A DNA stretch of 64,000 nt from assembly GCA_900696645.1 (NCBI GenBank), contig CAADGV010000007.1, positions 1-64,000 of the forward strand. The letters are read 5' to 3'. This document shows positions 9,532 to 27,512 of the stretch, in pieces (within the stretch, counting starts at the first letter, position 1; each line of letters opens with the position of its first letter). Both the position numbers and the translations under genes were made by a program. Source of the DNA: an uncultured Chlorobiota bacterium (lineage in GTDB: Bacteria; Bacteroidota; Ignavibacteria; UBA10030; UBA6906). A model generated the notes under the pieces. The model worked only from the letters and a program-made list of their open reading frames with translations, searched no databases and had not been told where the DNA came from.

Positions 9532-9549
9532 CAAACTCTCAGGCGCATA

Positions 9550-11037
9550 ATGATGTTCATATCTCGTTTCATCTTCTCCATCTTGTTGTTCGTAGTTACG
9601 CATGCAACAGGTAACAGCCAACTTCTTTCTCCAGCGGAAGAACGCAATTTCTCGATTCTTACGTCTTACAACGAACTGCAGAACTTTCTTGCGCGTGTCT
9701 CGAAGAAGCCGGGCGTTGAAGTCACGCACATTGCGACATTAGAGAGTGGAAGAAGTGTCTCCGCGGTTTTGTTGACGAACTCGCCACCATTTGGCAGCGA
9801 TACTGCGAAAGTCAGGGTTCTTCTCTTCGCGCAACAACATGGCGATGAGCCATCCGGCAAAGAAGCGCTTCTGACGCTGCTCGCCAAAGCCGCCAACGGT
9901 GACATGAACAGCATCCTGAGATATGTTGACGTGATCGTGATTCCGCAGATGAACCCTGACGGTTCAGAATTGCAGCAACGCCGCACAGCGGACACCGTGG
10001 ATCTGAACCGTAATCACGTTCTGCTTTCATCGCCCGCCGTCAAGGCATTGCATGATGTATATTTTCGATGGTTGCCGCATGTGACTTTGGATATTCACGA
10101 ATACGGGTCATTCAGCACATCGTGGAGTGATTCGGGCTTTATCAAGACGGGCGATGTTCAGTTGGGGATGTTGACGAATCCTAATACCTCCCCGGCCATC
10201 CGAAGTTACCAACATGATCGAATATATCCTTTCCTCTCTGAAAGGATGAAGCGTACAGGATACTCCTTTCATGAGTACATCGTTGGCTCACCGCGCGATC
10301 GGATTCGTCACAGCACGACTGAAATCAATGACGGCAGACAGAGCTTCGGAATTCTCGGCTCGCTGTCGTTTATTCAGGAGGGGAGAAAGTGGAAGACAAT
10401 CGATGAGCAACTTGAGCGAAGGGCCAGATCTCAGCTTGCCGCTGTGGAAGCGTTGCTTGAGTTTGTCGCAAAGAGTGTAGCCGAAATCCGCCTGCTCGTA
10501 AACAACGAGCGCCAGCGTCTCATGCAACTTCCGGGAACCGACGTCGTGGTCAGGATGGATCATTTCGCCGGTGATGATTCGTTGAAGATCCCTGTCCATT
10601 GGCTCTCCAACGGCCGGGATACATTGTGGACAGTAAAGCCGTATCATAGTGTAGCTAAACCTTTGGTAACCGTTCGGGCGCCGCGTGTTTATCTTGTGCC
10701 CGCCTCGAACAAAGACCTCATCCTGCTGCTCGAACGGCACAACATACCTATGAAGCCGATGCTGAAACGGAACATAGAGAACGTCGCAGAATATCTTATT
10801 GAAAATGTTGGCGAAGAGATTCTTGAAGAAGATACGCTCCCGGTACCCGTGATCAAGCATCATCCGACGCGATTGGCCTTGCAGGCGGGAACCGTTGTTG
10901 TTCCGATTGGTCAACTCCATTCTCTCTTTCTTGTTACACTCCTCGAACCGCAATCAATGTGGGGACTGGCGAAGTATCCCGCGTTCGAGTCCTACCTGAG
11001 ACAAGCTTCGTGGCCGATACTCAGGATTGAGAAGTAG
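9550..11037 (+). CDS. Zinc carboxypeptidase of family M14, secreted
   Basis: Predicted metallocarboxypeptidase of 495 residues with an N-terminal signal peptide ending near THATGNS. The M14 zinc site is visible: HGDE gives His97 and Glu100, and DIHEYG gives His183. Substrate-side landmarks are MNPDGSE and DTVDLNRN, and FIQEG (Glu277) is a candidate for the general base. The C-terminal 180 residues form an extra domain without a recognised family. There is no T9SS tail, so it is probably periplasmic. Two consecutive ATG codons open the frame. The gene follows the S51 peptidase by 18 bp, which suggests the two act on the same peptide material, with this enzyme trimming products that reach the periplasm. 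Confidence 0.88.
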   Translation: MMFISRFIFSILLFVVTHATGNSQLLSPAEERNFSILTSYNELQNFLARVSKKPGVEVTHIATLESGRSVSAVLLTNSPPFGSDTAKVRVLLFAQQHGDEPSGKEALLTLLAKAANGDMNSILRYVDVIVIPQMNPDGSELQQRRTADTVDLNRNHVLLSSPAVKALHDVYFRWLPHVTLDIHEYGSFSTSWSDSGFIKTGDVQLGMLTNPNTSPAIRSYQHDRIYPFLSERMKRTGYSFHEYIVGSPRDRIRHSTTEINDGRQSFGILGSLSFIQEGRKWKTIDEQLERRARSQLAAVEALLEFVAKSVAEIRLLVNNERQRLMQLPGTDVVVRMDHFAGDDSLKIPVHWLSNGRDTLWTVKPYHSVAKPLVTVRAPRVYLVPASNKDLILLLERHNIPMKPMLKRNIENVAEYLIENVGEEILEEDTLPVPVIKHHPTRLALQAGTVVVPIGQLHSLFLVTLLEPQSMWGLAKYPAFESYLRQASWPILRIEK

Positions 11038-11237
11038 TTGAGAATGCGTATCGGCTTGCCCCACCTCTTCTGATCTCAGAAAAGTCGGCTCGCAGTATGC
11101 GATTCGATTTTGATTGAATTGTGAGGGAAATTTTCTGAACTTAATGCTGTACGAAAGCTGACCCGAGTCTGCATGTGTGCTTGACTCATTCCGAACGCTC
11201 GAATCCAAGGCATCTAAGAAACGAAAGGACCATCATT

Positions 11238-13349: not shown

Positions 13350-13385
13350 ATGATAGGGGAAGAGACTTATCCCCTCATCATTTTT
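13350..13385 (+). terminator. Rho-independent terminator of the S9 peptidase gene
   Basis: Stem ATGAT-AGGGGA pairing with TCCCCT-(bulged C)-ATCAT, 9-base loop, followed directly by a T-run. It begins 4 bp after the stop codon at 13346 and overlaps the 3' end of the convergent gene on the minus strand. Confidence 0.6.
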
Positions 13386-13627
13386 CCTTCATACTCCGGA
13401 AAGTAGTTGCGGATCACGGGCAAATCAAACGAGCGGAGAATGCTTGTGTTGGGCTCCCGCTCAAGAAGAAACTCGAATGATTTGCGGATGAGTTCTTCCG
13501 GAGTGGCTTGCCCGTTTGTGAGTTTCTGATAGTACTGTGTAGACAACGTAACGATATGTGTTGTTTGCGTTCCGTTGTCTACAGCTACTTCAAACGTTGT
13601 TGCGTTGATTTTCTTCACGCTAATCAT
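13367..13627 (-). CDS. Small protein of unknown function, last gene of the purine operon
   Basis: Predicted 86-residue cytoplasmic protein. I do not recognise a family. It opens ISVKKINATTFEVAVDNGTQ, which suggests a small beta-sheet, followed by a helix-rich part (TPEELIRKSFEFLLERE), and has no signal peptide. The ATG at 13627 overlaps the stop of the acetyltransferase gene by 8 bases (ATGATTAG), which argues for a real, translationally coupled gene. A longer in-frame start at 13699 lies wholly inside the upstream gene and is unlikely. No clear link to purine breakdown. Confidence 0.65.
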   Translation of the reverse strand: MISVKKINATTFEVAVDNGTQTTHIVTLSTQYYQKLTNGQATPEELIRKSFEFLLEREPNTSILRSFDLPVIRNYFPEYEGKMMRG

Positions 13628-14066
13628 GGAGCATCTCGATGTGATGGATGCCGTCTTCAAGATAGATGTCGCTTGCCTGCCTGAACCCGAATGATTCATA
13701 GAAGCTCTTCAAATACAACTGGCAGCCCATCCGGATCGGCACATTGCCGAGTAATGCATACAGTCGTTCGATAGATATCCTCATCAGTTCTTTCCCGACT
13801 CCCGATCCCCGTACGCGCATCGACGTCACAACTCTGCCGATTGATGCTTCAACGTACGAAACACCCGGAGGAAGAATGCGGCTGTATGCAACCAACACAC
13901 TGCCGTCCCAACCCAACACGTGCCAACCCGCCTGATCTTTGTTGTCGGCGTCCTGAAACACGCAATGCTGTTCTACCACAAACACTTCGTTGCGCAAGCG
14001 CAATGCGGCGTAGAGTTCAGCCGGCGTAAGTCTGTCGAAATGTTTGCACTCCCAGACTAAGTTCAT
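13620..14066 (-). CDS. ElaA-like GNAT-family N-acetyltransferase
   Basis: 148-residue acetyltransferase resembling ElaA. Its N-terminus has the ElaA-type pattern ALRLRNEVFVVEQHC. The acetyl-CoA-binding motif appears as GRVVTSMRVRGSGVGKEL, and the C-terminal part has FYESFGFRQASD. GNAT proteins of this group transfer acetyl groups to small amines or proteins; the acceptor is unknown. The ATG at 14066 shares a base with the stop of the mocA-like gene (TGATG), so coupled translation is likely; a GTG one codon earlier is possible. It may be a passenger in the operon. Confidence 0.82.
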   Translation of the reverse strand: MNLVWECKHFDRLTPAELYAALRLRNEVFVVEQHCVFQDADNKDQAGWHVLGWDGSVLVAYSRILPPGVSYVEASIGRVVTSMRVRGSGVGKELMRISIERLYALLGNVPIRMGCQLYLKSFYESFGFRQASDIYLEDGIHHIEMLHD

Positions 14067-14662
14067 CACGCTTCATTCGTTGCCGATGAGACAACATCAC
14101 CGGAGAATCGTTTCGTCACGGCATCGTAATCACTCATCGAATCAATATCCAGGAGGATGTGTTCACTCTGTACAGGAACGAGTTCACAACTTTTTCGTTG
14201 GATTACTTGTCGCAACGTGGAATTATCGGGTTCCGCAAGAATATCATTGATGATTGTCCGGCTCAGCAAAATCGGATGTCCTTTCCTGCCGTTGAACGAA
14301 GGAATAACAATCCCGGCTTGATGCCTTGCCAATTCATCATACACTTTTTGGGGGACAAGCGGAATATCGGCAGGTAGCAAGAAGAACCTATTAGTGGTGA
14401 TGTGTCGTACTCCGGCCTTCACGGAACTGAACATCCCATCTTGCCAGTTCTTGTTCCCGACAAGTTCAACTTTAGAATAGCATGAAAGCAATTGGCGGAT
14501 TCGCTCAATGCGATATCCTCCAACAACAATAATGCGCGAGCAGACCTCATACATCCCCTCAATACTGCGTTCAATCAGCAATTTGTTCCCAAGCGGAAGT
14601 TCCATCTTGAAGCATCCGGCCCGTGAGGATGACCCTGCTGCGAGAACAATGCCTTCTAACAT
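14066..14662 (-). CDS. mocA: MocA-like molybdenum cofactor cytidylyltransferase
   Basis: 198-residue nucleotidyltransferase of the MobA/MocA group. It opens with the nucleotide-binding signature VLAAGSSSRAG, followed by the family Lys in FKMELPLGNK, and has the metal-binding PADIPLV and the GRKGHPIL loop. MocA attaches CMP to molybdopterin to make the cytosine dinucleotide cofactor of xanthine-dehydrogenase-type enzymes. The three-subunit molybdenum hydroxylase in the same operon is the natural recipient. In E. coli the equivalent gene (ygfJ/mocA) also sits in the purine-catabolism island. MobA (GMP transfer) cannot be fully excluded from sequence, but context favours MocA. Confidence 0.8.
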   Translation of the reverse strand: MLEGIVLAAGSSSRAGCFKMELPLGNKLLIERSIEGMYEVCSRIIVVGGYRIERIRQLLSCYSKVELVGNKNWQDGMFSSVKAGVRHITTNRFFLLPADIPLVPQKVYDELARHQAGIVIPSFNGRKGHPILLSRTIINDILAEPDNSTLRQVIQRKSCELVPVQSEHILLDIDSMSDYDAVTKRFSGDVVSSATNEA

Positions 14663-14699
14663 CTACACTTCTCAAGTCTGAGGAAGCGGATAGGTTTGG

Positions 14700-15701
14700 T
14701 CACATCGTCAACGCCATAATTGCTTTCGCGGTATGCAGACGGTTTTCGGCTTCAGGAAAGACACGGGATTGCGGCCCGTCGATCACGGAATCCACCACTT
14801 CGTAACCGCGATCTGCAGGGAGGCAGTGCATGTAGATCGAATTCTTTTTCGTCAGCTTCATTCTCCGCTCGTCGCAAATCCAGTCTTTGTACTTCTTCGA
14901 GATTTCCAGCGCTTCGTTTGGATTATGAAAAAGAGACTCGATGCCCCACGACTTCGGATACACAATATCCGCATCTTTGAAGGCTTCATCCATATTGTCA
15001 ACGATTTCGAACTTCGTTCCGTTTTCCGCCGCCGCTTTTTTCGCGTACTCAACTTCGCTTTTCATTAATGTGTACTCAGGCGGATGGGCGAGCACGACAT
15101 CCAGTCCGAAACGCGGCATCAGCGTAATCAATCCCTGCGGCACTGACATCGGCTTGGCGTAACTTGGCGCGTATGCCCATGAGACAGCTATTTTCTTCCC
15201 GCGCAAGTTCTTCCCGAATTCTTCCCGGATCGTCATCAAGTCTGCGAGCACTTGAAACGGATGGTCAATGTCGCATTGCATGTTCAGTACCGGTACTGTA
15301 GCGGCATCGGCAACTCTGCGCATATAGCTGTTTCCCTCTCCCGGAACAAGATCATGCCGGATTGCTATAGCATGGCCGTAGCTTGACAGAATGATTCCCA
15401 TATCCTTCGGCGACTCCCCGTGTGCAACCTGCGAAGTCTCCGACGAGATGAAATGTGCATGCGCACCGAGTTGTGTGGCTCCCGCTTCAAACGAGTTTCG
15501 TGTTCTGGTGGATTTGTCGAAGAAGAACAGAAACACTGTCTTGTCCGGTAGATAGCGATGCGGCTTTCCTTTCTTGAACATCTTCTTCAACTCGCCTGCC
15601 GTCTTCAGCGCGAGTTCGATTTCTTTCACCGACCAGTCTTTTGTTTCGATATAGTCTTTTCCCCGGACTGTGTTCGGCAACTTCTGTAGTTTAGTGGGCA
15701 T
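14700..15701 (-). CDS. ygeW: Knotted carbamoyltransferase, YgeW type
   Basis: 333-residue member of the aspartate/ornithine carbamoyltransferase superfamily. Visible motifs are KSTRTRNSFE (carbamoyl-phosphate site), QCDIDHPFQVLAD, and YMHCLPAD near the C-terminus. The blocks SVPQGLITLMPRFGLDV and EAFKDADIVYPKSW match E. coli YgeW as I remember it. YgeW-type enzymes occur in purine-degradation clusters and are thought to move a carbamoyl group from a ureido intermediate to phosphate, yielding carbamoyl phosphate for ATP. It is about 60 residues shorter than the E. coli protein, mostly at the C-terminus. AGGA 7-10 bases before the ATG supports the start. The gap to the upstream ygeY holds a dispersed repeat. 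Confidence 0.87.
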   Translation of the reverse strand: MPTKLQKLPNTVRGKDYIETKDWSVKEIELALKTAGELKKMFKKGKPHRYLPDKTVFLFFFDKSTRTRNSFEAGATQLGAHAHFISSETSQVAHGESPKDMGIILSSYGHAIAIRHDLVPGEGNSYMRRVADAATVPVLNMQCDIDHPFQVLADLMTIREEFGKNLRGKKIAVSWAYAPSYAKPMSVPQGLITLMPRFGLDVVLAHPPEYTLMKSEVEYAKKAAAENGTKFEIVDNMDEAFKDADIVYPKSWGIESLFHNPNEALEISKKYKDWICDERRMKLTKKNSIYMHCLPADRGYEVVDSVIDGPQSRVFPEAENRLHTAKAIMALTM

Positions 15702-15761
15702 GTGTCTTCCTCTCGTTAGTAAGTAATCACTTCAACCTTCAAAAGCTTGGCACGCTCAAAA

Positions 15762-15794
15762 GCCACTTCGTGCCTTCGCGTCTTCGTGGTTGTC
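15762..15794 (-). repeat. Dispersed CACGAAGG-type repeat in the ygeY-ygeW spacer
   Basis: Read on the minus strand this segment is built of ACCACGAAGACGCGAAGG and GCACGAAG units. It resembles the short tandem-like repeats scattered through many environmental FCB genomes. Related copies lie at 32199-32224 and 37328-37396. It explains the unusually wide 119-bp spacer inside an otherwise tightly packed operon. Confidence 0.6.
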
Positions 15795-15820
15795 TTTCAT
15801 TTCTGTCACACCGACGCGAG

Positions 15821-17017
15821 CTACTTTCCAATGTATGTCTTTGGAAACGATGCGTACCAAGCGGTTGCCTTCACCAGATGCTCGATTGGAATCTGTTCCG
15901 TTGCCATGTGTGCATAGATTTCGTTGCCCGGTCCAAATCCGATACAGGGAATTCCATGCATTCCCATCACGGCGACACCGTTCGTGCTGAACACCCAGCG
16001 TCCGACGTTCGGCTTCTCGCCGAACAGATTCTCAAATGTCTTCACGCCACTTCCCAACAACGGATGGTTTTCCGGCAGCAGCCATGTTGGGTAATACTTC
16101 TTCGTCGGATAGGTAAGCCCGCGCCAACTCGGCACCGCGTAATCAAGCACGACAACTTCCGCGTCCGCTTTCTTCACGCTCGGCAATTCCTGAATCTCTC
16201 GCACTGCCGACTCAAGCGTATCGGTCGCAGCAAGACGACGGTCGAGATGAATTGTAGAAGAGTCGGCAACGGCACAAAGCGAAGGCGATGTTGAACGTAT
16301 TTCGGAAATCGTCACTGTCCCTTTGCCGAGGAACGGTTCGCCCGTCAGTCGCTCGTTCAGTTTCTCGATGTCTTGTACAATCGGCGCCATCTTGTACACG
16401 GCATTCACGCCTCGCTCGGGCGCTGAGCCGTGACACGAAATGCCTTTCGTTCGGACCTCGATTTCCATTCTCCCCCGATGGCCGCGGTAGATTGCGAGAT
16501 TCGTCGGCTCGGTAATGACCACGACTTCAGGCCGCAGCTTGTCTTCGTTGATGATATATTGCCAGCATAACCCGTCGCAATCCTCTTCCTGCACGCTGCC
16601 GACTACATACAGCGTGTAGTCGTCTTCAAGTTCAAGTTCTTTGATAAGTTTACCGCCATGAACAATTGAAGCAAATGCGCCTTTCATATCGCAAGCTCCG
16701 CGTCCGTAAATGATGCCGTCCTTCACGGCTCCTTTGAACGGATCGATGTTCCAGTTTGCAGGATTGCCGACATCAACAGTATCAACGTGCGCATCAAAGG
16801 CAATGATATGCTTCCCCTTCCCGATGCGTCCCAGAATATTTCCCATCGGGTCGATGGCAATTTCATCGAACTTGCATTTTTCCATCTCCTCTTTGATGCG
16901 ATAAATGACCCGCTCTTCCTGGGAACTTAGCGATTTGATGCTGATGAGGTCGCGAAGGAACTGAGTCACCTGAGGCTCATTTGTTTGAGCCGCCTTGAGT
17001 ATTTCTGAGTAGTCCAT
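15821..17017 (-). CDS. ygeY: YgeY-type M20 hydrolase of purine catabolism
   Basis: 398-residue metallohydrolase of the M20 deacylase family. Metal and catalytic residues are in FDAHVDTVD, GACDMKGAFA and VQEEDCDGLCW. The dimerisation domain contains SCHGSAPERGVNA. The phrase QEEDCDGLCWQYII is nearly identical to E. coli YgeY, giving a specific family call. YgeY is associated with anaerobic purine breakdown, where it is thought to hydrolyse ureido groups from 2,3-diureidopropionate-like intermediates; that substrate comes from the literature as I recall it, not from this sequence. It lies 21 bp after the PLP-enzyme gene and 119 bp before ygeW. Confidence 0.9.
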   Translation of the reverse strand: MDYSEILKAAQTNEPQVTQFLRDLISIKSLSSQEERVIYRIKEEMEKCKFDEIAIDPMGNILGRIGKGKHIIAFDAHVDTVDVGNPANWNIDPFKGAVKDGIIYGRGACDMKGAFASIVHGGKLIKELELEDDYTLYVVGSVQEEDCDGLCWQYIINEDKLRPEVVVITEPTNLAIYRGHRGRMEIEVRTKGISCHGSAPERGVNAVYKMAPIVQDIEKLNERLTGEPFLGKGTVTISEIRSTSPSLCAVADSSTIHLDRRLAATDTLESAVREIQELPSVKKADAEVVVLDYAVPSWRGLTYPTKKYYPTWLLPENHPLLGSGVKTFENLFGEKPNVGRWVFSTNGVAVMGMHGIPCIGFGPGNEIYAHMATEQIPIEHLVKATAWYASFPKTYIGK

Positions 17018-17038
17018 CGTATTCTCTTTCAGTCCGAT

Positions 17039-18499
17039 TTATGTTGTTGTTCCAATCTCTGTGTTGAAATCCGTAATCATCCGGTCGAACACTCTGACCT
17101 CATCCTCGAACATCTCTCGCCAAAACTCCGGCTCCCACAGTGCGTTAAGTTCCTCGACTGTCCGACCCTGCTGTTCAACCCATGTAAAATACTTCAAGTT
17201 ATGGAGTGACTTACGGTCGTAGTACGAGAGTTCTTTGAAATACTCGATGCCCTGATGTTCAATTGCAGCTGCATGATCCTTTGCCGCCTGCACAACAGTG
17301 TAGTCGCCAATTTCATCTCTCAATTCTTCGAGACGTGATTTATACAAGTCCGTCGAATCAGTGAAGATGGTAAAGATGACGTCGTTCTCATTCATCTCAA
17401 AATACTTCGCCGTCTTGATGGCCGCCAGCAGGTTGCCGATGCTCGAAATGCCGAGTAACGGCAGATTGTTAATCACATGCTTGTTGACAGCACAGAAGCC
17501 GAGATACTCCCGCCCCGCCGGTTCATTGAACAGTCGCAACACACGCATGCAGTCCTCGTCATCGATGGCGGTAACGGCATCCGTGTTGCGTACGTTATGC
17601 ACCCACGGCACATGCTTGTCGCCGATGCCTTCTATGCGGTGGCCGCCGAAGCCATTCATCAATAATGTCGGACATTGCATCGCTTCGCTCGCAACAATCT
17701 TGAGATGGGGATATTTCGTTTTGAGATAGTCGCCCGCGGCAATCGTCCCCGCAGAGCCGGTCGCCGATATGAATGCGGCTGCACGCTTCGTTTCCAGATC
17801 AAGCCCGTTGAACATTTCTTCGATCGCCGGACCCGTTACATTGTAATGCCAGATGGGATTGCCGTACTCTTCAAATTGGTTGAAGATGATGTTGTTCGGG
17901 TCTTTCTTCAGTTCCCAGCATTTGTCGTAAATCTCCTTGACGTTGGATTCACAGCCCGGCGTGGCAATAACTTCGGCACCGATTTCCTTCAGCCATGCAA
18001 AGCGTTCCTTCGACATTTCTTCGGGGAGAATGGCGACGGCGGTGCAATCAAGCAGAGCGCAATCGAATGCGCCGCCTCGACAGAAGTTGCCGGTTGAAGG
18101 CCATACGGCCTTATGCCGGGTCGGGTCGAATTCACCGCTGACAAGTCGTGGAACGAGACAACCAAATGCGGCTCCGACTTTGTGCGCCCCCGTCGGAAAG
18201 TATTTGCCGACCAACCCTATGATTCGGGCTTTCACTCCTGTAATGCATTGTGGAATTTCAAGGTAGTTCACACCGCCGAAAAGTCCCGTCCTCACATCAT
18301 TCTTCCATGTGATGCGGAAGAGGTTCAGAGGGTTGATATCCCACAGTCCGATCTTCGAGAGGCCGTCTTGAATGTTTTGCGGAATAAGGCTCGGGGTTCG
18401 GAGTTGAGCGAATGTTGGAATGAGAATTCCGCGTTCACGGCAGCGCGTTGCTGTTTTCTTGATAACGTCGTGATCGAGGTGTTTGATGATAGATGACAT
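17039..18499 (-). CDS. PLP-dependent fold-type II enzyme in the YgeX (diaminopropionate ammonia-lyase) position
   Basis: 486-residue PLP enzyme of the cysteine synthase / tryptophan synthase beta superfamily. The Schiff-base lysine is probably Lys107 in PTGAHKVGAAFG. The substrate loop is PSTGNFCRGGAF and the phosphate-binding glycine loop is TGSAGTIAAGDYL. It is about 90 residues longer than E. coli YgeX and does not match it closely in the blocks I can recall, yet it occupies YgeX's place beside ygeY and ygeW. The expected reaction is release of ammonia from 2,3-diaminopropionate to give pyruvate, but a different substrate is possible. AAAGGA 4-9 bases before the ATG supports the start. Confidence 0.75.
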   Translation of the reverse strand: MSSIIKHLDHDVIKKTATRCRERGILIPTFAQLRTPSLIPQNIQDGLSKIGLWDINPLNLFRITWKNDVRTGLFGGVNYLEIPQCITGVKARIIGLVGKYFPTGAHKVGAAFGCLVPRLVSGEFDPTRHKAVWPSTGNFCRGGAFDCALLDCTAVAILPEEMSKERFAWLKEIGAEVIATPGCESNVKEIYDKCWELKKDPNNIIFNQFEEYGNPIWHYNVTGPAIEEMFNGLDLETKRAAAFISATGSAGTIAAGDYLKTKYPHLKIVASEAMQCPTLLMNGFGGHRIEGIGDKHVPWVHNVRNTDAVTAIDDEDCMRVLRLFNEPAGREYLGFCAVNKHVINNLPLLGISSIGNLLAAIKTAKYFEMNENDVIFTIFTDSTDLYKSRLEELRDEIGDYTVVQAAKDHAAAIEHQGIEYFKELSYYDRKSLHNLKYFTWVEQQGRTVEELNALWEPEFWREMFEDEVRVFDRMITDFNTEIGTTT

Positions 18500-18520
18500 T
18501 TATTTCCTTTGCAATAGTAG

Positions 18521-19771
18521 TCAGCCCGTATAATTGACTGTAGAGAATTCTTGAGGAGCGCGCATCTCGATGCATCCCTCCACCGGACATACCAACTCGC
18601 ACAAACCGCAACCAACGCATCGTTCTTCCGACACGATGGGAATCTTGCTCGGTCGCCGGTCAATCGCTATATGCCCGCCGTCGCGGCAAGCGACGTAACA
18701 TACTTCACATTGAATACACAGCGCGTCGTTGATGTGACTGCGTACACTGCATCGAGGCAAATCATCATGCGTTACGAGATGCGGCAATGCCCTTCGATGA
18801 ATGTTTGTCACCGAAGTAAAATTCATGTCGTCAAGATAATGAGATAGGCCGCTCTTCAAGTCATCGATAATGCGGAAACCATGATGCATCACTGCCGTGC
18901 AGAATTGAACAACGCCGGCACCGACCGCCGTGAATTCCACTGCATCACTCCACGTCGAAGCACCACCCGTTCCGAGAATCGGGATATCGACATTCCGCGC
19001 AATTTCCGAGATAGTCTTGAGTGTTATCGGTTTGATTGCCGGTCCGGTCAGACCGCTATGTGTTGAGCGGCCGTTGAGTTGCGGATACGGCACGAACGTT
19101 CTGATGTCAATTCCCATCAACGCCTGCAGTGAGTTCGAAGCGGTAATGGCATCGGCTCCGCTTCGCTTCACTGCTCGCGCAATCTCGAGGATATCCGTAA
19201 CGTGCGGTGTGATTTTTATGGAGATTGGAATTCGCTTTGCCGCTTCCTTAACCCATCGGGCTGTAAGTTCTGTTGCGACAACGCTTTGCGCCAGCATCTT
19301 GCCGGGGTCTTCACCAATGTTTCCCTGCGGACACGAAAAACTGCATTCGATGAAATCTACTCCGGCGGATTCGAGACGCTCGACGAGGTGTTGCCAATCT
19401 TCTTTTCGACCTGCCATGATACTTGCGCCCACGATCTTCTCAGGGAATTCTTTCTTCAACATCCTCACATTGTTCTCGACCTTGTCAACGTGATGTTCGG
19501 AAATCAGGTCGATATTTCCCATGCCGAACAACTTCTTCCCGTCGTGATTGAACGTGCTCATCATCGGGTAGGCAAGATCGACACGAGTTCCTTCAACTGA
19601 TGTAGTTTTTAAGATTGCGCCAGCCCATCCCATGTGGAATGCGCGGCGAACCATCTCAAGATTGTCCGTCGAAGGTGCGGCGGCGAGAATGAATGGATTC
19701 TCGAATCGCAAGCCCAGGAAATCGTACGATAAATCCCTTGTAGTGTAGATATCAATATCTCTGATGTTCAT
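18521..19771 (-). CDS. PreA-like flavin/iron-sulfur subunit (dihydropyrimidine dehydrogenase family)
   Basis: 416-residue protein matching the C-terminal half of dihydropyrimidine dehydrogenase (DPD). Residues about 14-320 form an FMN-binding TIM barrel: FENPFILAAAP, CSFSCPQGN, SIKITPHVTDI, GLTGPAIKPI, GTGGASTWSDA. Two 4Fe-4S clusters follow (CIQCEVCYVACRDGG and CVGCGLCELVCPVEGC). With PreT it should make an NAD(P)H-linked reductase. In human DPD the catalytic loop after SCPHG carries a cysteine; the equal-length loop here appears to have Leu at that place, so it may not reduce pyrimidines. In this operon it could provide the reductive step assigned elsewhere to YgfK. Its ATG overlaps the preT stop (ATGA). 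Confidence 0.85.
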   Translation of the reverse strand: MNIRDIDIYTTRDLSYDFLGLRFENPFILAAAPSTDNLEMVRRAFHMGWAGAILKTTSVEGTRVDLAYPMMSTFNHDGKKLFGMGNIDLISEHHVDKVENNVRMLKKEFPEKIVGASIMAGRKEDWQHLVERLESAGVDFIECSFSCPQGNIGEDPGKMLAQSVVATELTARWVKEAAKRIPISIKITPHVTDILEIARAVKRSGADAITASNSLQALMGIDIRTFVPYPQLNGRSTHSGLTGPAIKPITLKTISEIARNVDIPILGTGGASTWSDAVEFTAVGAGVVQFCTAVMHHGFRIIDDLKSGLSHYLDDMNFTSVTNIHRRALPHLVTHDDLPRCSVRSHINDALCIQCEVCYVACRDGGHIAIDRRPSKIPIVSEERCVGCGLCELVCPVEGCIEMRAPQEFSTVNYTG

Positions 19772-21036
19772 CTCTGTGCCCTCCTCGTCTCTGCGGTGAG
19801 GTAGTCATGCATAGCATGAGCCGCCGCTTTTCCGTGCGCGACAGATTGCACGATTGTTCCTTCTCCCTGAATAGCATCTCCGCCCGCAAACACTCCGTCA
19901 AGCGAAGTACGATAACTGTCATCTACCCTGATGAACCCCTGGGAAGTTCTTTCAAAGAGAGAAACGAAATCTGCCTGAATGACCTGTCCGATAGCAACAA
20001 TGATGCAGTCGGCATCGAGATCGAAATCCGATCCGGGAACCTCAAACGGAACTGGCCTGCCGGAGGCGTCGTGCTGATCGGAAAGCCTCGTCCTGCGGCA
20101 GCGAAGTCCGGTCACGCCATCGCTACCGACAATCTCAATAGGGATTGTCAGGAATTGGATTTGCACGCCACGCTTCTTGGCTTCTTCAAGTTCGCTTTTC
20201 CATACCTTCATCTCCGTCTCGCTTCTTCTGTAGATCAGGATGACTTGGCTTGCGCCGAGATGTGTGGCTGTTGCCGCGGCATCGAGAGAGACATTGCCGC
20301 CGCCAACAATCACAACTTGCTTGCCGATGTAAGCAGTGTTCATCTTCGCACGCCCGAGAAACCGGAGAACGGGCAGAACCCCGGGGAGATGTTCACCGGG
20401 AATGCCGAGCGGCTTGTCGAGGCCCAGACCTATTCCGACGAATACCCCGTCGTGCTGCTCGCGAATTCTCGCGAATGCTTTGGTGTCTACCAGCCTCTGA
20501 TGAGAGTGAACGAAAGGGGAGAGAAACTCGATGTCACTGCGGAGTTCATCATTGCTGAGACGAAACGACGGAATGCTGTTACGCGGAACGCCGCCGAATC
20601 CTTTCGCATCGTACACATGAACAGCGTAGCCCATCTTGACCAACTCAAACGCGCAGCCAAGCCCCGCCGGTCCTCCGCCGATGACAGCAACCGATCTTCC
20701 ATTCTTGGGAAAAGCCGGTGTGATAGAGTAGCCCCGTTTCCATTCCTGTTGCGTTGCGAAGAGATGCAGTTCACGAATTCGAATTGGCGAATCCTGTTTC
20801 GCCCGGTTGCAGGCAGACTGGCAAAATATCTCCTCGGGGCAGACTTTGCCGCAGATGTTTGCCAAAGCGTGCGATGTCTTGACAACTTCCGCCGCTCCGA
20901 TAACATTCCCTGATTTGATCATCGCAATGAACTTCGGAATGTCAATGTGAACGGGACAGGCTTGAGTACATGGCGCATCAAAGCAATACAAGCAGCGTTC
21001 AGCTTCGGTACAGGCTTGTTGGTGTGTCAATTGCAT
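19768..21036 (-). CDS. PreT/GltD-like NAD(P)H-dependent flavoprotein subunit
   Basis: 422-residue electron-input subunit. The N-terminus binds iron-sulfur clusters (CLYCFDAPCTQACPVHIDIP and a second set around CGKVCPEEIFCQSACNRAK). An FAD site (VAVIGGGPAGLGCAFEL) and an NAD(P)H site (VVIVGGGNVSLDAAATA) follow, with the closing FAGGDAIQGEG. It corresponds to E. coli PreT and the N-terminal half of eukaryotic DPD, and should pass electrons to the adjoining PreA-like subunit. The last ten residues (LTAETRRAQR) and the stop codon are encoded by a dispersed repeat at 19772-19800, making it about ten residues longer than PreT. It follows the 2Fe-2S subunit gene by 38 bp. Confidence 0.88.
   Translation of the reverse strand: MQLTHQQACTEAERCLYCFDAPCTQACPVHIDIPKFIAMIKSGNVIGAAEVVKTSHALANICGKVCPEEIFCQSACNRAKQDSPIRIRELHLFATQQEWKRGYSITPAFPKNGRSVAVIGGGPAGLGCAFELVKMGYAVHVYDAKGFGGVPRNSIPSFRLSNDELRSDIEFLSPFVHSHQRLVDTKAFARIREQHDGVFVGIGLGLDKPLGIPGEHLPGVLPVLRFLGRAKMNTAYIGKQVVIVGGGNVSLDAAATATHLGASQVILIYRRSETEMKVWKSELEEAKKRGVQIQFLTIPIEIVGSDGVTGLRCRRTRLSDQHDASGRPVPFEVPGSDFDLDADCIIVAIGQVIQADFVSLFERTSQGFIRVDDSYRTSLDGVFAGGDAIQGEGTIVQSVAHGKAAAHAMHDYLTAETRRAQR
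19772..19800 (-). repeat. CGCAGAGACG-type dispersed repeat forming the 3' end of preT
   Basis: On the minus strand this reads CACCGCAGAGACGAGGAGG followed by GCACAGAG, the form of a very common short repeat family in environmental bacterial genomes. It is translated as TAETRRAQR at the end of preT and runs up to the overlapping preA start codon. Confidence 0.6.
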
Positions 21037-21074
21037 TTAGTAGAAACGCGATCGTTGTTTGTTTACTTCACAGT

Positions 21075-21557
21075 TTAGGGTTTACGCTCAGGTTTGTTCG
21101 CCGAAGCAGCCTGAATTGCCTCCACAATCTGCACATAGCCTGTGCAGCGACAGAGGTTTCCGGAAATCGCGAATCGGATGTCCGTTTCTGGCGGGTTGGG
21201 ATTCTCATCCAATAATTCCTTTGCGCTCAGCAACATGCCGGGTGTACAGAATCCGCAGTGAACAGCTTCATGCTCGAGGAATGCTTCCTGCAATGAATGA
21301 AGTTGCTCTCCGACTGCCAATCCTTCAACAGTAAGAATCTCTTGTCCTTCAATTTGAGGCGCGAGAACGAGACAGGCGTTCACTGCCCTTCCATTCATCA
21401 AGACTGTACACGCCCCGCACTCTCCAATCTCACAGCCTCGCTTTGTCCCTGACAATCCAAGTTCTTCTCTCAGAATATCAAGAAGAGTCTGATTTGGATT
21501 GATGCAGAGAGTATAATTGCGACGGTTGATTGTCGTTGTGATAGTGAGTGTGTTCAT
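21075..21557 (-). CDS. Molybdenum hydroxylase (xanthine dehydrogenase family) 2Fe-2S subunit
   Basis: 160-residue electron-transfer subunit with two [2Fe-2S] sites. The plant-type N-terminal cluster ligands are in CEIGECGACTV plus the later Cys in NACL. The second cluster ligands are in HCGFCTPGM and NLCRCTGY. It accepts electrons from the molybdenum subunit and passes them to the FAD subunit. The ATG at 21557 overlaps the FAD-subunit stop as ATGA and was chosen over an ATG at 21566. Small subunits of XDH, nicotinate or CO dehydrogenases look alike; the operon points to a purine hydroxylase. Confidence 0.93.
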   Translation of the reverse strand: MNTLTITTTINRRNYTLCINPNQTLLDILREELGLSGTKRGCEIGECGACTVLMNGRAVNACLVLAPQIEGQEILTVEGLAVGEQLHSLQEAFLEHEAVHCGFCTPGMLLSAKELLDENPNPPETDIRFAISGNLCRCTGYVQIVEAIQAASANKPERKP

Positions 21558-22411
21558 CTGCAGCATTGCTCCAACGCTCGTTGCACAAGCACGGCAATGA
21601 CCGGCTCTTTGTATTCGGTTGACCAGCGGTGGCCCGTTTCTGCGATCATCAATTCTGAAACTGTGTCACCCGCTGCCCGGAACAGCTCTGCCGATGCTTT
21701 TTCTCCGACCAGAAGTTTCTCGGCTTCAACGACTCGTCGCCATCGGGGGAATGTTGCACCGGGAACGATTCGCGCATTTGTAATAACGCCCGCCTCATCC
21801 CGTGCAACGACAGCAGCAACACTGAGTCGCGAGATCGAAAGGGCATTTCGTCTTCCCAATTTTATGAATGAGGAACGGGCCTTCACCGGCAGTTTCTCGA
21901 ACCGGATCTCACACAGAATCTCGTCGGGCCGCGCTACAGTCTCGTACGGTTTCAGGAAAAGCTCATGTAGAGGCAACGTCCGTCTTTCGCTTTCGGATTG
22001 AAGAACGACTTCGGCATTAAGTGCAATCAGCGGGGGAACAGTGTCAGCACACGCGGCGGCATTCATGATATTTCCGCCCACTGTTCCGCGGTTTCGGATT
22101 TGCGGAGAGCCAATCACGGTAGCAGCAACAGAGAGAAGAGGGGCGGATTCAATAATAGCCTGAGATTTCAATATCTGTGCATGTGTCGTTAACGGTTTAA
22201 GGACGATGCGGCCGTTGCCCGACTCAATTCCTTTCATCTCGGTGAGAGCGGAAATGTCGATAACGTTTTCAGGCGTGCATGCTGATGGGCGACGCCATTC
22301 AATCAGCAAATCCGTTCCTCCCGCAAGCAGGCAAACGTTCGGGGTGTGATGCGCCAGCAAGCCGATGGCTTCATGGAGATTTGTTGCACGCATGTAGTTG
22401 AACGGCTTCAT
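21554..22411 (-). CDS. Molybdenum hydroxylase FAD-binding subunit
   Basis: 285-residue middle subunit of a xanthine-dehydrogenase-type enzyme. FAD-binding signatures are LLAGGTDLLIEW (about 29-40) and RNRGTVGGNIMNAAACADTV (about 106-125), followed by the CO-dehydrogenase flavoprotein C-terminal domain. It relays electrons from the iron-sulfur clusters to NAD+ or another acceptor. Its ATG overlaps the stop of the large subunit by 4 bases, and its stop overlaps the 2Fe-2S subunit start, so the three subunits are translationally coupled. Confidence 0.92.
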   Translation of the reverse strand: MKPFNYMRATNLHEAIGLLAHHTPNVCLLAGGTDLLIEWRRPSACTPENVIDISALTEMKGIESGNGRIVLKPLTTHAQILKSQAIIESAPLLSVAATVIGSPQIRNRGTVGGNIMNAAACADTVPPLIALNAEVVLQSESERRTLPLHELFLKPYETVARPDEILCEIRFEKLPVKARSSFIKLGRRNALSISRLSVAAVVARDEAGVITNARIVPGATFPRWRRVVEAEKLLVGEKASAELFRAAGDTVSELMIAETGHRWSTEYKEPVIAVLVQRALEQCCR

Positions 22412-24870
22412 TCGTCGGTTGCCTTATGACGGATTTTGCATGATGCGTCGGTCCACGTTTCTGCTGCAGATTTCCTGACTGAGCCGCGTTCACCTTTTCG
22501 CGTAAGCTTGTGTCCTAACAACACTCGCTCGAGGTTTGCTGGAAGTTCGTACACGCGTTGTCCGGTTGCGTTGAAGATTGCGTTCACGATTGCCGGAGCC
22601 GCAATCTCGTTTGCGGGTTCGCCGATGGATTTTGCTCCGAACGGACCGGCAGCGTCTTCGTTCTCGACAATGATTGCTTTGACAGGGGGGACATCCATCG
22701 AAGTTGGAATCAGGTACTCATCGAAGTTGAGATGCTTGGGAACTCCGTCTTCAAAATCAAATTCTTCCAGCAATCCGTACCCCAGTCCCATTGCCACCCC
22801 GCCGTAGATTTGTCCTAACACGCCGCCCCGGCTGATTGCCTTGCCGACGTCGTGAACGGATGTGAACTCAACGACATCGACTTTGCCTGTTTGGGTGTCA
22901 ACTTCAACTTCAGCAACGTTGCAGCCGTAGACGAAAGTGAAATATGCTTCGCCTTGTCCCTTTTCTTCATCCCAAGAAGTTTTGGGAGATTTGAACCAGC
23001 CGAAGCCGTACATCGGTTTGCCGCGCCGGAATGTTTCGGCGGCGAGTTCGGTGAATGAGGCGAGCCGCTTACAGCGCCTGCTGGTCGAGTCTCCCGACTC
23101 GACTCCCGGCGGGACGGGTGTCTCGCCCAACGTGTGCACCAAATAATTCTCTCTCAAATCCAACGCCTCGGCTGTTATACCCGTCATCTTAGAACCAACA
23201 TCCAGTAGTGTTGCACGAACAATCTCCGCTGCACGTTTTGCCGCCGATCCGCCCATGATCGTCCCGCGGGAAGCAACTGTGGGTCCTGAATCGGGGACGC
23301 GGCTGGTGTTTGTATTAAGGAACTGAATTCGGTCGAGTGAAATCCCCAACACCTCGGCTACGATATGCGACATTGCAGATTGGGCGCCTTGTCCCATATC
23401 GGTGATCCCGGAGGAGACAATCATGCTTCCGTCTGTTTGCACCGAAACGATCGTGCCCGCCGCATCCGTTCCTTCGGCACCCAAAGAGACACCGCGGTAG
23501 CTGCACGCGATCCCGATGCCGTTCTTCTTCGGTGATGGCGGCTGGTGGCGGTAATCATTCCATTTTTTAGCGAAGCTACTTGAGTGTGCAGCTTTCGTCA
23601 GTACTTCCTTCAGACTCACGTTATGCTCGAGTTTCTGCCCCGTTGCAGTAACAGCTCCGCGCTCGAATCCATTCTGCAAACGAATCTCAAGAGGATTCTT
23701 TCCAACTTTCTCTGCAAGCTCATCCATCATCGACTCAATGGCGAAGTTGACTTGCGGGGAGCCGAAGCCGCGCATTGCGCCTGTGTAGTTGTTGTTTGTG
23801 TACACGGCATAGACGTCAGTCTTCACATTCTCGCAATGGTAGGGACCAGTTGCCTGTACGACAGAGCGCCACGTGACGAAGGGACTCATTGAAGCATAGG
23901 CGCCACCGTCAGCGATGCAACGCTGTTCCATTGCGGTAATGCGTCCGTCTTTCTTCACGCCCCATTTGTAGTACATAACGTAGGGGTGACGCTTGTAGCT
24001 CTCAAGCATTGACTCTTCACGTGAGTTCACCATCTTCACGGGTTTGCCCGTCTTCAACGCGAGCAGCGCGGAGCGGCAGCACATTGCGGTCATCACTTCA
24101 TCTTTCCCGCCGAAGGAACCGCCGAGTGTAGTCTGAATAATCTCGACTTTGTTGAGATCAAGATTCAAGAAAGTGGCAACGGAGCGCCTTGATGAGAAAA
24201 GATTTTGTATCGAACCGGTGATCTTCACGCCACCTTGCTCGGAGGGTTCTGCGAGAACAGCTTCCGGTTCAAGATACGAGTGTTCGATGAACTGTGTTTT
24301 GAATCTTCTCTCAATGACAAAATCCGCTTCGGCAAATCCCTTTTCAGTATCTCCCTTTCGGACTTTGTGATGAACGAATGTGTTTCTGAATTCGTATTCG
24401 GGAGAATCGTCGTGAATGCGGGGTGAATCCGGCTGCATCGCTGTCTCAGGGTCGGGTAGAACCGGGAGTGGCTCGTAGTCAACGTTAATCAGCGTGATTG
24501 TCTTTTCAGCAATCTCTTTTGAAACTGCGGCAACAAGAACAACGCCGTCGCCAAGGTAACGAACCTTCTCTTCAGCCAGAATTGCCTGGTTTTTCACGAC
24601 TATACCGAACACTTTGCTGCCGGGAATATCCTTTGCCGTTAGCACGGCCTCGACACCGGGCAACTGAGCAGCCTTGGATGTGTCAATGCGGAGGATGCGG
24701 GCATGCGGATACTTTGAACGCAGTACCTTGCCGTACAGTTGGTGTGCGACGTTGTAGTCCTCGGCGAACTTCGCTTTGCCTGTTACCTTCCCCCAGGCGT
24801 CAACGCGACGTTGTTGAGTGCTGACTATGTTGTGTTCCTTTTCCACTATCTTTGCGTTACTCTTTTCCAA
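22408..24870 (-). CDS. Molybdenum hydroxylase large (molybdopterin-binding) subunit, XDH family
   Basis: 820-residue catalytic subunit. It opens with RVDAWGKVTGKAKFAEDY, the usual XDH large-subunit start. Cofactor-binding blocks are TTLGGSFGGKDE, GAMRGFGSPQ and MGQGAQSAMSH, and the active-site glutamate lies in FGAKSIGEPANE. In this operon it probably hydroxylates or, running in reverse, reduces purines. Residues about 580-605 (PPGVESGDSTSRRCKR) are encoded by a palindromic segment that looks like an in-frame repeat insertion and contributes to the large size. The frame opens with TTG at 24870; a GTG at 24846 overlapping the ssnA stop (TAGTG) is an equally good start and would remove eight residues. 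Confidence 0.9.
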   Translation of the reverse strand: MEKSNAKIVEKEHNIVSTQQRRVDAWGKVTGKAKFAEDYNVAHQLYGKVLRSKYPHARILRIDTSKAAQLPGVEAVLTAKDIPGSKVFGIVVKNQAILAEEKVRYLGDGVVLVAAVSKEIAEKTITLINVDYEPLPVLPDPETAMQPDSPRIHDDSPEYEFRNTFVHHKVRKGDTEKGFAEADFVIERRFKTQFIEHSYLEPEAVLAEPSEQGGVKITGSIQNLFSSRRSVATFLNLDLNKVEIIQTTLGGSFGGKDEVMTAMCCRSALLALKTGKPVKMVNSREESMLESYKRHPYVMYYKWGVKKDGRITAMEQRCIADGGAYASMSPFVTWRSVVQATGPYHCENVKTDVYAVYTNNNYTGAMRGFGSPQVNFAIESMMDELAEKVGKNPLEIRLQNGFERGAVTATGQKLEHNVSLKEVLTKAAHSSSFAKKWNDYRHQPPSPKKNGIGIACSYRGVSLGAEGTDAAGTIVSVQTDGSMIVSSGITDMGQGAQSAMSHIVAEVLGISLDRIQFLNTNTSRVPDSGPTVASRGTIMGGSAAKRAAEIVRATLLDVGSKMTGITAEALDLRENYLVHTLGETPVPPGVESGDSTSRRCKRLASFTELAAETFRRGKPMYGFGWFKSPKTSWDEEKGQGEAYFTFVYGCNVAEVEVDTQTGKVDVVEFTSVHDVGKAISRGGVLGQIYGGVAMGLGYGLLEEFDFEDGVPKHLNFDEYLIPTSMDVPPVKAIIVENEDAAGPFGAKSIGEPANEIAAPAIVNAIFNATGQRVYELPANLERVLLGHKLTRKGERGSVRKSAAETWTDASCKIRHKATDE
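23084..23103. repeat. Hairpin repeat inside the molybdenum-hydroxylase large subunit gene
   Basis: Perfect 8-bp arms GTCGAGTC and GACTCGAC around TCCC. Flanking bases (CGAGACACCCGTCCCGCC on the minus strand) have the look of a mobile palindromic element. The reading frame passes through unbroken. Confidence 0.55.
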
Positions 24871-26210
24871 AGCTTTGATGCAACCAATGCTGCCTCTTTC
24901 ATCACCTTTTCTTCATCAATTCCAACCAATTGACGATTGAACATTGCCCATTGCCCGTTGACCATTGAGTGTACAACCATTCTTGAATTTATCCCAAAAA
25001 GGAAATGGCCAGCCAGATTGTTTGCGTGCAACGGAGTCGGAGGAAGGTAGTCGAGCACAATCAAATCTGCCGCCGAGCCGACAGCGAGAGTTCCGAATTC
25101 TTGTTGAAAGAATGAGCCTGCGAGACGCTGTCCGGCATGAAGCATGTCGGGAAGCCGGTCGAAAGCAACGCGGTGGCCTGACTCTTGATTGCGGAAGAAT
25201 CCCATTCTGCATTCTTCAAACATATCTGCAGGGAAGCCATCCGTGCCCAGGGCGGCCTGTTCCCCGAACCATTGCAGCGGCGCATAGCCGACGGCATTAT
25301 TCATGTTCGAGCGGGGGTTGTGCACGAGCCATGCACCGGCTGCTTCAATGCGTTTCAACTCAGACTGACTCAGATGAACACCGTGCGCGAGAATGGATTG
25401 GGGAGACAACAACCCGAAGCGTTCGAGTCGTTTCACCAAGTGGCTGGAGACCGTTGAAACGGTTCGGGGATTACGCTTGACGTGTATCTTCCCACGACTG
25501 AAGTCGTGTGCTGTGAGGGATCTCCTTGGCGCGTCGAGAACGTCGGCTTTATCTTCGGCGACGTGGATGTGCACGCCGCAATCATACCGTCGCGACATTT
25601 CGCCGAGGGTCTGCATGGTGTCATCGTTCAGCGTAAGCGATGCGTGTGCGCCGACTATTCCGCGCAGCAATGCGTGATTCCGATACCGATTGAGGAACCT
25701 TTCATTCTCGTCAAGTCCCGCATCACGACGTTTCCGTCCGCCTCTGTCGGTTGTTTCGTAACAGAGAATGCCCCGAATTCCCACGCGCAACATCGCGTCA
25801 GCAATGGCATCGAGTGATTCCATGATGTAGTTCGGAGAGGAATGATGGTCTATGAGCGTTGTTGTCCCGTTCCTGATTGCATCCATGCTGCCGACCAACG
25901 CGCTATAGTAAATACTCTCCTCATCCAGTGACTCATCCAACTTCCACCAAATCTTCTTGAGAATTTCAAGGAAGGTTTCGGGAGATTGTTTTGGAGCGGG
26001 CATACCTCTCGCCAACGCGGAATACAAATGCGTGTGGGCGTTCACCATGCCGGGCATGATGAGTCTGTCCGAAAGGTCAACCGTTTCTTCGCCCTTCATC
26101 GGGCGAAGTGTTTTCGCTTTTGCTACGACACTTCTTCCACGAACGCGTAAATCCACACGCTCAATGCGAGAAGGGGAGAGAATTAGAGTTGTTCCGTTTT
26201 TGAGAAGCAT
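24846..26210 (-). CDS. ssnA: SsnA-like amidohydrolase of purine catabolism
   Basis: 454-residue metal-dependent amidohydrolase. Metal ligands appear in NAHTHLYSALARG, the His of HIHVAED, AHGVHLS and LGTDGFPADMFEE. WWKLDESLDEESIYYS, IDHHSSP and NARSNMNN-like NPRSNMNNAVGY closely track E. coli SsnA. The family resembles guanine deaminase and atrazine chlorohydrolase and is found in purine-degradation clusters; the natural substrate is unsettled. Between HIHVAED and LVKRLERFG it carries about 23 extra residues (including AHDFSRGKIHVKRNP) encoded by a two-hairpin repeat. The ATG at 26210 aligns with the E. coli start; a TTG at 26249 would add 13 residues. Confidence 0.9.
   Translation of the reverse strand: MLLKNGTTLILSPSRIERVDLRVRGRSVVAKAKTLRPMKGEETVDLSDRLIMPGMVNAHTHLYSALARGMPAPKQSPETFLEILKKIWWKLDESLDEESIYYSALVGSMDAIRNGTTTLIDHHSSPNYIMESLDAIADAMLRVGIRGILCYETTDRGGRKRRDAGLDENERFLNRYRNHALLRGIVGAHASLTLNDDTMQTLGEMSRRYDCGVHIHVAEDKADVLDAPRRSLTAHDFSRGKIHVKRNPRTVSTVSSHLVKRLERFGLLSPQSILAHGVHLSQSELKRIEAAGAWLVHNPRSNMNNAVGYAPLQWFGEQAALGTDGFPADMFEECRMGFFRNQESGHRVAFDRLPDMLHAGQRLAGSFFQQEFGTLAVGSAADLIVLDYLPPTPLHANNLAGHFLFGINSRMVVHSMVNGQWAMFNRQLVGIDEEKVMKEAALVASKLWKRVTQR
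25450..25508. repeat. Two-hairpin BIME-like palindromic element inserted in frame in ssnA
   Basis: Two palindromes about 30 bp apart: ACCGTT-GA-AACGGT at 25450-25463 and CACGACT-GA-AGTCGTG at 25493-25508. Both have the same GA centre. Pairs of this kind (AACCGTTTCAACGGTT-like and CACGACTTCAGTCGTGG-like) are recalled as REP-type elements of Bacteroidota/Chlorobiota genomes. The whole unit is translated as part of SsnA. Confidence 0.7.
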
Positions 26211-26282
26211 CTCAAGAAAATCTTCGTATTTTCGAGCATTCTTCGACAAAGGCGCATCGGCCTGCGGCTGAGTGGTTTTCTT

Positions 26283-27512
26283 CTATTTGCGCAATGCCCG
26301 TTGCAGAGCTTCCAACTTCGGCTCAATATCAATCGCTTGCCCGGCAGCTTGTTTCGCAGATTGAATGTCCTTCAATCCGTTGCCCGTGATGACAACAACC
26401 GCCGATTCGTCCGGTTTCACAATTCCTGTTGAGATCGCCTTCTTTAGTCCCGCAACGCCTGCAACCCCAGCCGGTTCGCCGAACACGCCGCCGAGACGGG
26501 CAGTCAATCGCATAGCGTCAAGAATCTCCTCGTCTGAAACGGCGATCATATCACCGGTCGAGGCTTTGACCTGCTGAATTGCACGGCGCCAGTTGCGCGG
26601 CGTACCAACTGCGATGCTGTCGGCAACTGTGTTGGTTCCGGTAGGAACCAAATCCTTTCGGCTTTTGAATGCTTCAAGAACAGGCTTTGCTCCTTCCGCC
26701 TGAACGCCGAGCAATCGTGGAACTCGATCAAGAACGCCGGGCCGCTTCATTTCCTGCAAGCCCTTCCCGATTCCGCCGATTGTGCATCCATCTCCAACGG
26801 AGACGACTACCCAATCGGGAATGTTCTTTCCAAACTGTTCGGCGATTTCGAGTCCCGCTGTTTTCTTTCCTTCTACCAGGAATGGATTGATCCCGCTGCT
26901 GCGGTTGTACCACCCGAACTCCTCACACGCTTGTGTGCAGAGATCAAATGCCTGCTCGTAAGTCCCTTGCACTCTCATAACTGTTGCACCGAAAATCAGA
27001 AGCTGTGTTACTTTTGGCTCAGGTGCTCGCTGCGGCACGAAGATGTAGCTCTTCAATCCAATTGCTGCGGAAAGTCCGGCAAGTGATGACGCAGCATTTC
27101 CCGTCGAGGCACACGCAATCGTATCAAAACTAAACTCCCTTGCCTTCATCACTCCAACAGCGCTTGCTCGATCTTTGAAAGAGTTGGTTGGATTTCTTCC
27201 ATCATCTTTCAAGAATAACTTTGAGATCCCGACTGCTTTTGCGAGTCGCGGTACGTCGTAGATTGGAGTCCAGCCGATATGCAGAGGCGGAAGGGGAACG
27301 TCAGACGAAACCGGAAGGAAATCACAGTAGCGCCAGATGTCCCGCTGCAACGAATCCCGCCGGGTTTGTGTGAACCGGGCGGCGAGACAATCGAAATCGT
27401 ACTCAACATCGAGGATGCCTTGCTCGCCGCATTTCGGACACGTGAGTATGTTCTTGTGCGCGTGAGTAGCGCCGCACACAAGACACCTGAGTCCGGTTAC
27501 GAGTGTGGCCAT
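26283..27512 (-). CDS. Threonine-synthase-like PLP enzyme, first gene of the purine operon
   Basis: 409-residue fold-type II PLP enzyme. A zinc-ribbon-like N-terminus (Cys10, Cys13, Cys25, Cys28) precedes the catalytic domain. The Schiff-base lysine is Lys113 in NPTNSFKDRAS. The substrate loop is ASTGNAASSLAG and the phosphate loop is VSVGDGCTIGGIGKG. Threonine synthase converts O-phosphohomoserine to threonine, but relatives eliminate amino or phosphate groups from other beta/gamma-substituted amino acids. Its place 33 bp (or 72 bp with the shorter start) before ssnA suggests either a housekeeping gene captured at the operon head or a role on a purine-derived amino acid. No homoserine-pathway gene is nearby. 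Confidence 0.82.
   Translation of the reverse strand: MATLVTGLRCLVCGATHAHKNILTCPKCGEQGILDVEYDFDCLAARFTQTRRDSLQRDIWRYCDFLPVSSDVPLPPLHIGWTPIYDVPRLAKAVGISKLFLKDDGRNPTNSFKDRASAVGVMKAREFSFDTIACASTGNAASSLAGLSAAIGLKSYIFVPQRAPEPKVTQLLIFGATVMRVQGTYEQAFDLCTQACEEFGWYNRSSGINPFLVEGKKTAGLEIAEQFGKNIPDWVVVSVGDGCTIGGIGKGLQEMKRPGVLDRVPRLLGVQAEGAKPVLEAFKSRKDLVPTGTNTVADSIAVGTPRNWRRAIQQVKASTGDMIAVSDEEILDAMRLTARLGGVFGEPAGVAGVAGLKKAISTGIVKPDESAVVVITGNGLKDIQSAKQAAGQAIDIEPKLEALQRALRK

Follow-up and report, generated by a model that had tools for sequence, protein, structure and literature searches.

How does a bacterium finish the reductive degradation of urate when the lyase that ends the published pathway has no gene in its operon? 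The question is raised by a twelve-gene minus-strand operon (positions 13620-27512) in a 64,000-nt stretch of DNA, here called the window, which covers positions 1-64000 of contig C7 of a genome of the class Ignavibacteria (G000, the host genome, 4.2 Mb and rated 100% complete; C-numbers are its contigs). The genes encode, in order, PALP1, SsnA, XdhA, XdhB, XdhC, PreT, PreA, PALP2, YgeY, a YgeW-like carbamoyltransferase, MocA and a GNAT acetyltransferase, PALP1 and PALP2 being two pyridoxal phosphate (PLP) enzymes. Our answer is that the operon probably provides most of the reductive urate pathway, with PALP2, probably together with PALP1, ending it instead of YgeX.

The steps of this pathway have been shown in vitro for gut bacteria (Li et al. 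2025, PMC12507026; commentary PMC12990295). XdhD-YgfM takes urate to yanthine, which YgfK or the PreA homologue UacX then reduces; SsnA opens the ring to give ureidomethyl-hydantoin, and HyuA opens the hydantoin; YgeW or UacY takes off one ureido group and YgeY the second; YgeX converts diaminopropionate to pyruvate. In C. difficile it is UacX, a PreA/PydA homologue, that stands in for YgfK. The same study lists SsnA in Pseudomonadota, Bacillota, Chloroflexota, Actinomycetota, Spirochaetota and Elusimicrobiota; its neighbourhood map scores every PF00291 protein as YgeX, so PALP1 and PALP2 are indistinguishable from YgeX there.

Results

The unusual part of the operon is its two PLP enzymes, since they stand where YgeX would be. 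A preliminary description of the locus overlooked this and had the two enzymes bracket the gene set; PALP1 is indeed the first gene, but PALP2 lies between PreA and YgeY. PALP2 belongs to a family of about 485 residues with 60-76% identity across phyla over about 480 residues, and, apart from the general PLP fold, profile searches assigned it to no curated family: it scores 110 bits against the cysK model (cut-off 351), and no cysteine synthase or cystathionine beta-synthase (CBS) model is over its cut-off. Its predicted structure (mean pLDDT 89.6, pTM 0.92) matches CysK, beta-cyanoalanine synthase and CBS with Z of 31-35 over residues ~36-410, and adds a helical C-terminal part; diaminopropionate ammonia-lyase is absent among the structural matches listed, which excludes nothing. 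Like YgeX, a diaminopropionate ammonia-lyase, both are fold-II PLP enzymes encoded beside YgeY and YgeW, but a BLAST search with E. coli YgeX does not match PALP2 and aligns to PALP1 at just 21% identity. Neither protein is over the cut-off of the diaminopropionate ammonia-lyase models, to which the profile search gave PALP2 no match, and in the alignment both carry Thr in the place of YgeX Asp120.

PALP2 is tied to the pathway by co-occurrence. We sampled 296 genomes of the phylum irrespective of whether they have PALP2: 24 of the 25 with YgeY encode it and 0 of the 271 others do, and both states are mixed inside families f2, f3 and f5 (f-numbers denote families within this sample, G-numbers genomes and L-numbers fetched loci). 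A second sample of 50 named genomes from many phyla was picked because PALP2 is present, a selection that biases it on the question of mutual exclusion; here SsnA is matched in 48 (E ≤ 1e-60), in 27 of them over cut-off, and YgeX is present in 4. The weakest of these SsnA matches could be related deaminases: the 5'-deoxyadenosine deaminase of the host scores 179 bits. In relatives, PALP2 and PALP1 recur beside SsnA, YgfK or PreA, Xdh, YgeW, YgeY and HyuA. PALP1 recurs in 43 related loci, and of 60 PALP2 loci of at least 10 kb, whose content we counted by tblastn because greedy picking of open reading frames (ORFs) misassigned some GC-rich loci, 30 include it in the fetched stretch; it was not seen in the fetched clusters L031, L034 and L039, where it may sit elsewhere in the genomes.

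For an essential lyase PALP2 is the stronger candidate, being near universal, whereas several fetched clusters show no PALP1. A CysK-like enzyme tied to this pathway most likely acts on albizziin or diaminopropionate, the amino acids of the pathway in which the alpha-amino group is free and the beta carbon is substituted. In YgeX, Asp120 probably serves the D-substrate and Lys77 the L-substrate; with Thr at the Asp120 place, PALP1 and PALP2 may each be confined to one stereoisomer, and the presence of two enzymes would then have an explanation, although this reading of the alignment is speculation. A role for PALP1 as the threonine synthase of the host was considered and ruled out, another ThrC adjoining a homoserine-kinase-like ORF on contig C5.

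PALP2 also occurs in other settings. In the Elusimicrobia loci L086, L088, L092, L102, L113, L120 and L131 it lies off-cluster, adjoining a CpXC protein and a poly(A)-polymerase-like nucleotidyltransferase, with SsnA elsewhere in the genomes checked. In a Spirochaetota locus (L094:4249-12497) it lies between alanine racemase and an oligopeptide-type solute-binding protein, which is followed by ORFs resembling the ABC transporter of the latter.

The reductase of the operon is a second departure from the E. coli gene set. As the preliminary description had it, YgfK is missing: a search of the whole host genome gave no YgfK over cut-off, and the only matches were to homologues of the YgfK FAD domain. 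Its reading of the split PreT/PreA pair as taking the place of that reductase is likewise supported, and the UacX precedent (PMC12507026) means that a PreA-for-YgfK swap is already known. The operon PreA is 76-88% identical to the operon PreA of its own order and 38% identical both to E. coli PreA and to the PreA of a second PreT/PreA pair in the host, which adjoins a D-hydantoinase and an NCS1 transporter on contig C9 in a canonical pyrimidine cluster; operon PreT is 38% identical to the PreT of that cluster. The two host loci are alike in having a PreT/PreA pair, and the proposed urate route would, like the pyrimidine cluster, include a dihydropyrimidinase-type hydantoinase, but the operon PreA is a separate paralogue. 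It retains the reductase fold, the Fe-S clusters and the catalytic Cys, and has no hydrolase domain. At the position three residues ahead of this Cys, before the SCP loop, dihydropyrimidine dehydrogenase has its uracil-binding Asn (Asn668 of the pig enzyme). Operon-type PreA has Ser there, and E. coli PreA and the C9 pyrimidine PreA have Asn; YgfK has a GCP loop and Met at this position. The replacement of Asn by Ser would fit a changed substrate.

In relatives that belong to other families of the class, the corresponding cluster retains a full-length YgfK. PreT-PreA fusions are found in reductive-urate-type clusters at L030:9404-11899 (831 aa), L083:3-2240 and L095:3-2252, each with Ser at the uracil-binding Asn position, and a third reductase form appears in same-order clusters without PreT/PreA, where proteins of 675-753 aa (L023:920-2947 and L028:12183-14444) match only YgfK residues 1-400.

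The operon lacks HyuA, as had been described, but the genome does not: a genome-wide search found the C9 D-hydantoinase over cut-off (C9:94596-95957; 530 bits, cut-off 393), and this enzyme would serve the purine route in the host. Every one of the 24 PALP2-positive genomes in the phylum sample has a hydantoinase match, which is either a divergent type encoded in the cluster or a D-hydantoinase that passes the cut-off in 15 genomes and mostly lies elsewhere; in G074 the hydantoinase gene is divergently adjacent to PALP1.

The remaining catalytic genes fit the pathway to different degrees. YgeY, SsnA, MocA and a molybdenum hydroxylase, which the preliminary description had named as a signature together with YgeW, are all present, the hydroxylase in three subunits, and the carbamoyltransferase is only YgeW-like: against the curated YgeW models it scores 252-265 bits (cut-offs 453-500), and it has the YgeW-type KPxSVPQG segment, not that of ornithine carbamoyltransferase (OTC). 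That it might be the only OTC of the host was ruled out by three others on contigs C32, C21 and C45, the one on C32 adjoining a carbamate-kinase-like ORF. In two genomes of the same order (loci L025 and L028), the YgeW is of the E. coli type (62-65% identity, 396 aa) and takes the place of the short form. SsnA falls just short of the TIGR03314 cut-off (431 bits, cut-off 455.5), and its start codon is uncertain, an ATG lying 13 codons inside the called start. XdhA is distinct from the classical xanthine dehydrogenase (XDH) of the host (C7:244k) and is under every xanthine-specific cut-off in profile searches.

The genes of Table 1 form the single minus-strand run with overlapping starts that had been reported, twelve genes that overlap or lie close. 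The intergenic gaps are, in gene order, 33, -25, -4, -13, 38, -4, 21, 21, 119, 37 and -4 bp; the widest, 119 bp, is ahead of the YgeW-like gene, and the others span -25 to 38 bp. The host, described before as a member of the FCB (Fibrobacterota-Chlorobiota-Bacteroidota) group, is placed more narrowly by its class. Just downstream of the operon, a cyanophycinase-like protein, an M14 carboxypeptidase-like protein and an S9 peptidase are encoded in a row on the plus strand (window 7447-13346).

Table 1. Genes of the operon in gene order, with the ORF that follows them (window positions)
Feature	Position	Strand	Description
PALP1	26283..27512	-	Fold-II PLP enzyme resembling ThrC, with a Cys-rich (zinc-ribbon-like) segment at the N-terminus; first gene; scores 292.7 bits against NF006050 (cut-off 303)
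SsnA amidohydrolase	24846..26249	-	Predicted opener of the reduced purine ring; 456 bits to NF005540 (cut-off 444); 37% to E. coli SsnA
XdhA	22408..24870	-	Molybdopterin subunit, XDH family; predicted urate-to-yanthine reductase
XdhB	21554..22411	-	FAD subunit
XdhC	21075..21566	-	2Fe-2S subunit
PreT-like	19768..21036	-	FAD/NAD(P)H subunit, predicted to pass electrons to PreA; Fer4_20 and Pyr_redox_2 domains
PreA-like	18521..19771	-	FMN/Fe-S reductase, predicted to act on yanthine as the stand-in for YgfK; 427.9 bits to NF006183 (cut-off 335)
PALP2	17039..18499	-	CysK/CBS-fold PLP enzyme, 486 aa with a helical extension at the C-terminus, from an uncurated family; proposed to be a diaminopropionate ammonia-lyase
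YgeY	15821..17017	-	M20 hydrolase, predicted ureido-group hydrolase; 579-585 bits (cut-off 321); 54% to E. coli YgeY
YgeW-like carbamoyltransferase	14700..15701	-	Short form, 333 aa; 42% to E. coli YgeW
MocA-like molybdenum cofactor cytidylyltransferase	14066..14662	-	145 bits to TIGR03310 (cut-off 186)
GNAT acetyltransferase	13620..14069	-	Shared at this site only by the sister genome; a role in the pathway is doubtful
110-aa ORF	13367-13699	-	Thirteenth ORF; no family; reading frame shifted in the sister genome

Discussion

The operon represents a known pathway in variant form, with published precedent for its swap of reductase, and the link to anaerobic purine or urate breakdown drawn in the preliminary description is supported, the genes fitting the published route (PMC12507026). 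We infer the substrates and reactions of all its enzymes, above all those of the PALP2/PALP1 step, from genomes. XdhABC would reduce urate to 2,8-dioxopurine (yanthine), the pyrimidine ring of which would be reduced by PreT/PreA with NAD(P)H and then opened by SsnA; the D-hydantoinase encoded on C9 would convert the resulting hydantoin to 2,3-diureidopropionate. The YgeW-like enzyme would take off one ureido group as carbamoyl phosphate, for which the putative carbamate kinase on C32 is available, and YgeY would remove the other to leave 2,3-diaminopropionate, which PALP2, probably with PALP1, would cleave to pyruvate and ammonia in place of YgeX.

With the E. coli pathway (XdhD-YgfM, YgfK, SsnA, HyuA, YgeW, YgeY and YgeX; PMC12507026) the operon shares an XDH-family enzyme, SsnA, YgeY, a YgeW-like enzyme and MocA. 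It differs in having separate PreT and PreA for YgfK, an XDH in three subunits, a short YgeW-like protein, HyuA outside the operon and PALP1 plus PALP2 in the place of YgeX. The C. difficile variant carries out the dearomatising step with a PreA-type reductase, UacX, as we propose for the operon, whereas the operon PreA has a PreT partner, which suggests NAD(P)H rather than ferredoxin as donor; ureido removal would fall to the YgeW-like enzyme, not UacY, and YgeX is not in the operon.

Several observations weigh against this assignment. The host also has a YgeX (C32:1597-2664; 370 bits, cut-off 276), unlinked and beside unrelated secreted proteins, and therefore PALP2 and PALP1 are not strictly needed in it; and PALP2 is away from the cluster in 23 of the 60 long loci. 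Residue E606 of XdhD, considered as a marker of urate reduction, sits in an insertion with no matching column in the alignment with operon XdhA and speaks neither for nor against that activity. A search of the host for an NCS2 purine permease found none. Outside the window, at C7:238015-247982 (locus L020), the classical XDH, an allantoinase, an allantoicase and a PF22484 protein together form an oxidative purine set, and hence a second possible route for urate; the host may use both.

The C32 YgeX could in principle carry out the last step of the same pathway, with PALP1 and PALP2 acting otherwise on diaminopropionate or albizziin, for example by racemisation or by an exchange of amino group for sulfide that yields cysteine. 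That PALP2 resembles CysK and beta-cyanoalanine synthase, which perform beta-replacement, is consistent with such a role, as is the consideration that a single elimination needs fewer than two PLP enzymes; we regard it as rather unlikely, since YgeX occurs in 5 of the 25 YgeY genomes of the phylum sample, the host among them, and has no match in 19 of the 24 PALP2-positive genomes there or in 46 of the 50 named genomes. A further alternative, that the substrate is not urate but some other N-heterocycle, or a compound resembling a hydantoin, broken down by the same type of chemistry, would account for the missing permease, the separate oxidative set and the low scores of XdhA against xanthine-specific models. 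It is made improbable by the match of SsnA, YgeY and the YgeW-like enzyme, as a set, to the published urate pathway, and by the position of classical XDH, which is beside PALP2 in several relatives and directly upstream of PALP1-SsnA in G168, linking the operon there to urate made from xanthine. The model of the preliminary description, in which PreAT itself opens the ring and makes HyuA dispensable, draws on the lack of HyuA in the operon and is hardly credible given the reductase features of PreA, the ubiquity of a hydantoinase match in PALP2-positive genomes, and the presence in the operon of SsnA: enzymes of the PreA/YgfK kind reduce the ring, and it is this amidohydrolase that opens it.

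Returning to PALP2 as the terminal enzyme, we propose tentatively, with confidence somewhat short of even, that it represents an unrecognised diaminopropionate ammonia-lyase family, not orthologous to YgeX, with which many environmental phyla complete the reductive urate pathway, and that with PALP1 it may split the task of the non-stereospecific YgeX, either with one enzyme per stereoisomer or as racemase plus lyase. In the literature searched we found no description of a replacement of YgeX by PALP2/PALP1 across many phyla, which we infer from gene content. On this proposal, a pathway worked out only in 2025 from gut bacteria would extend to Ignavibacteria and to many further environmental phyla, where its last enzyme differs, and PALP2 is a conserved, testable candidate for that last step.

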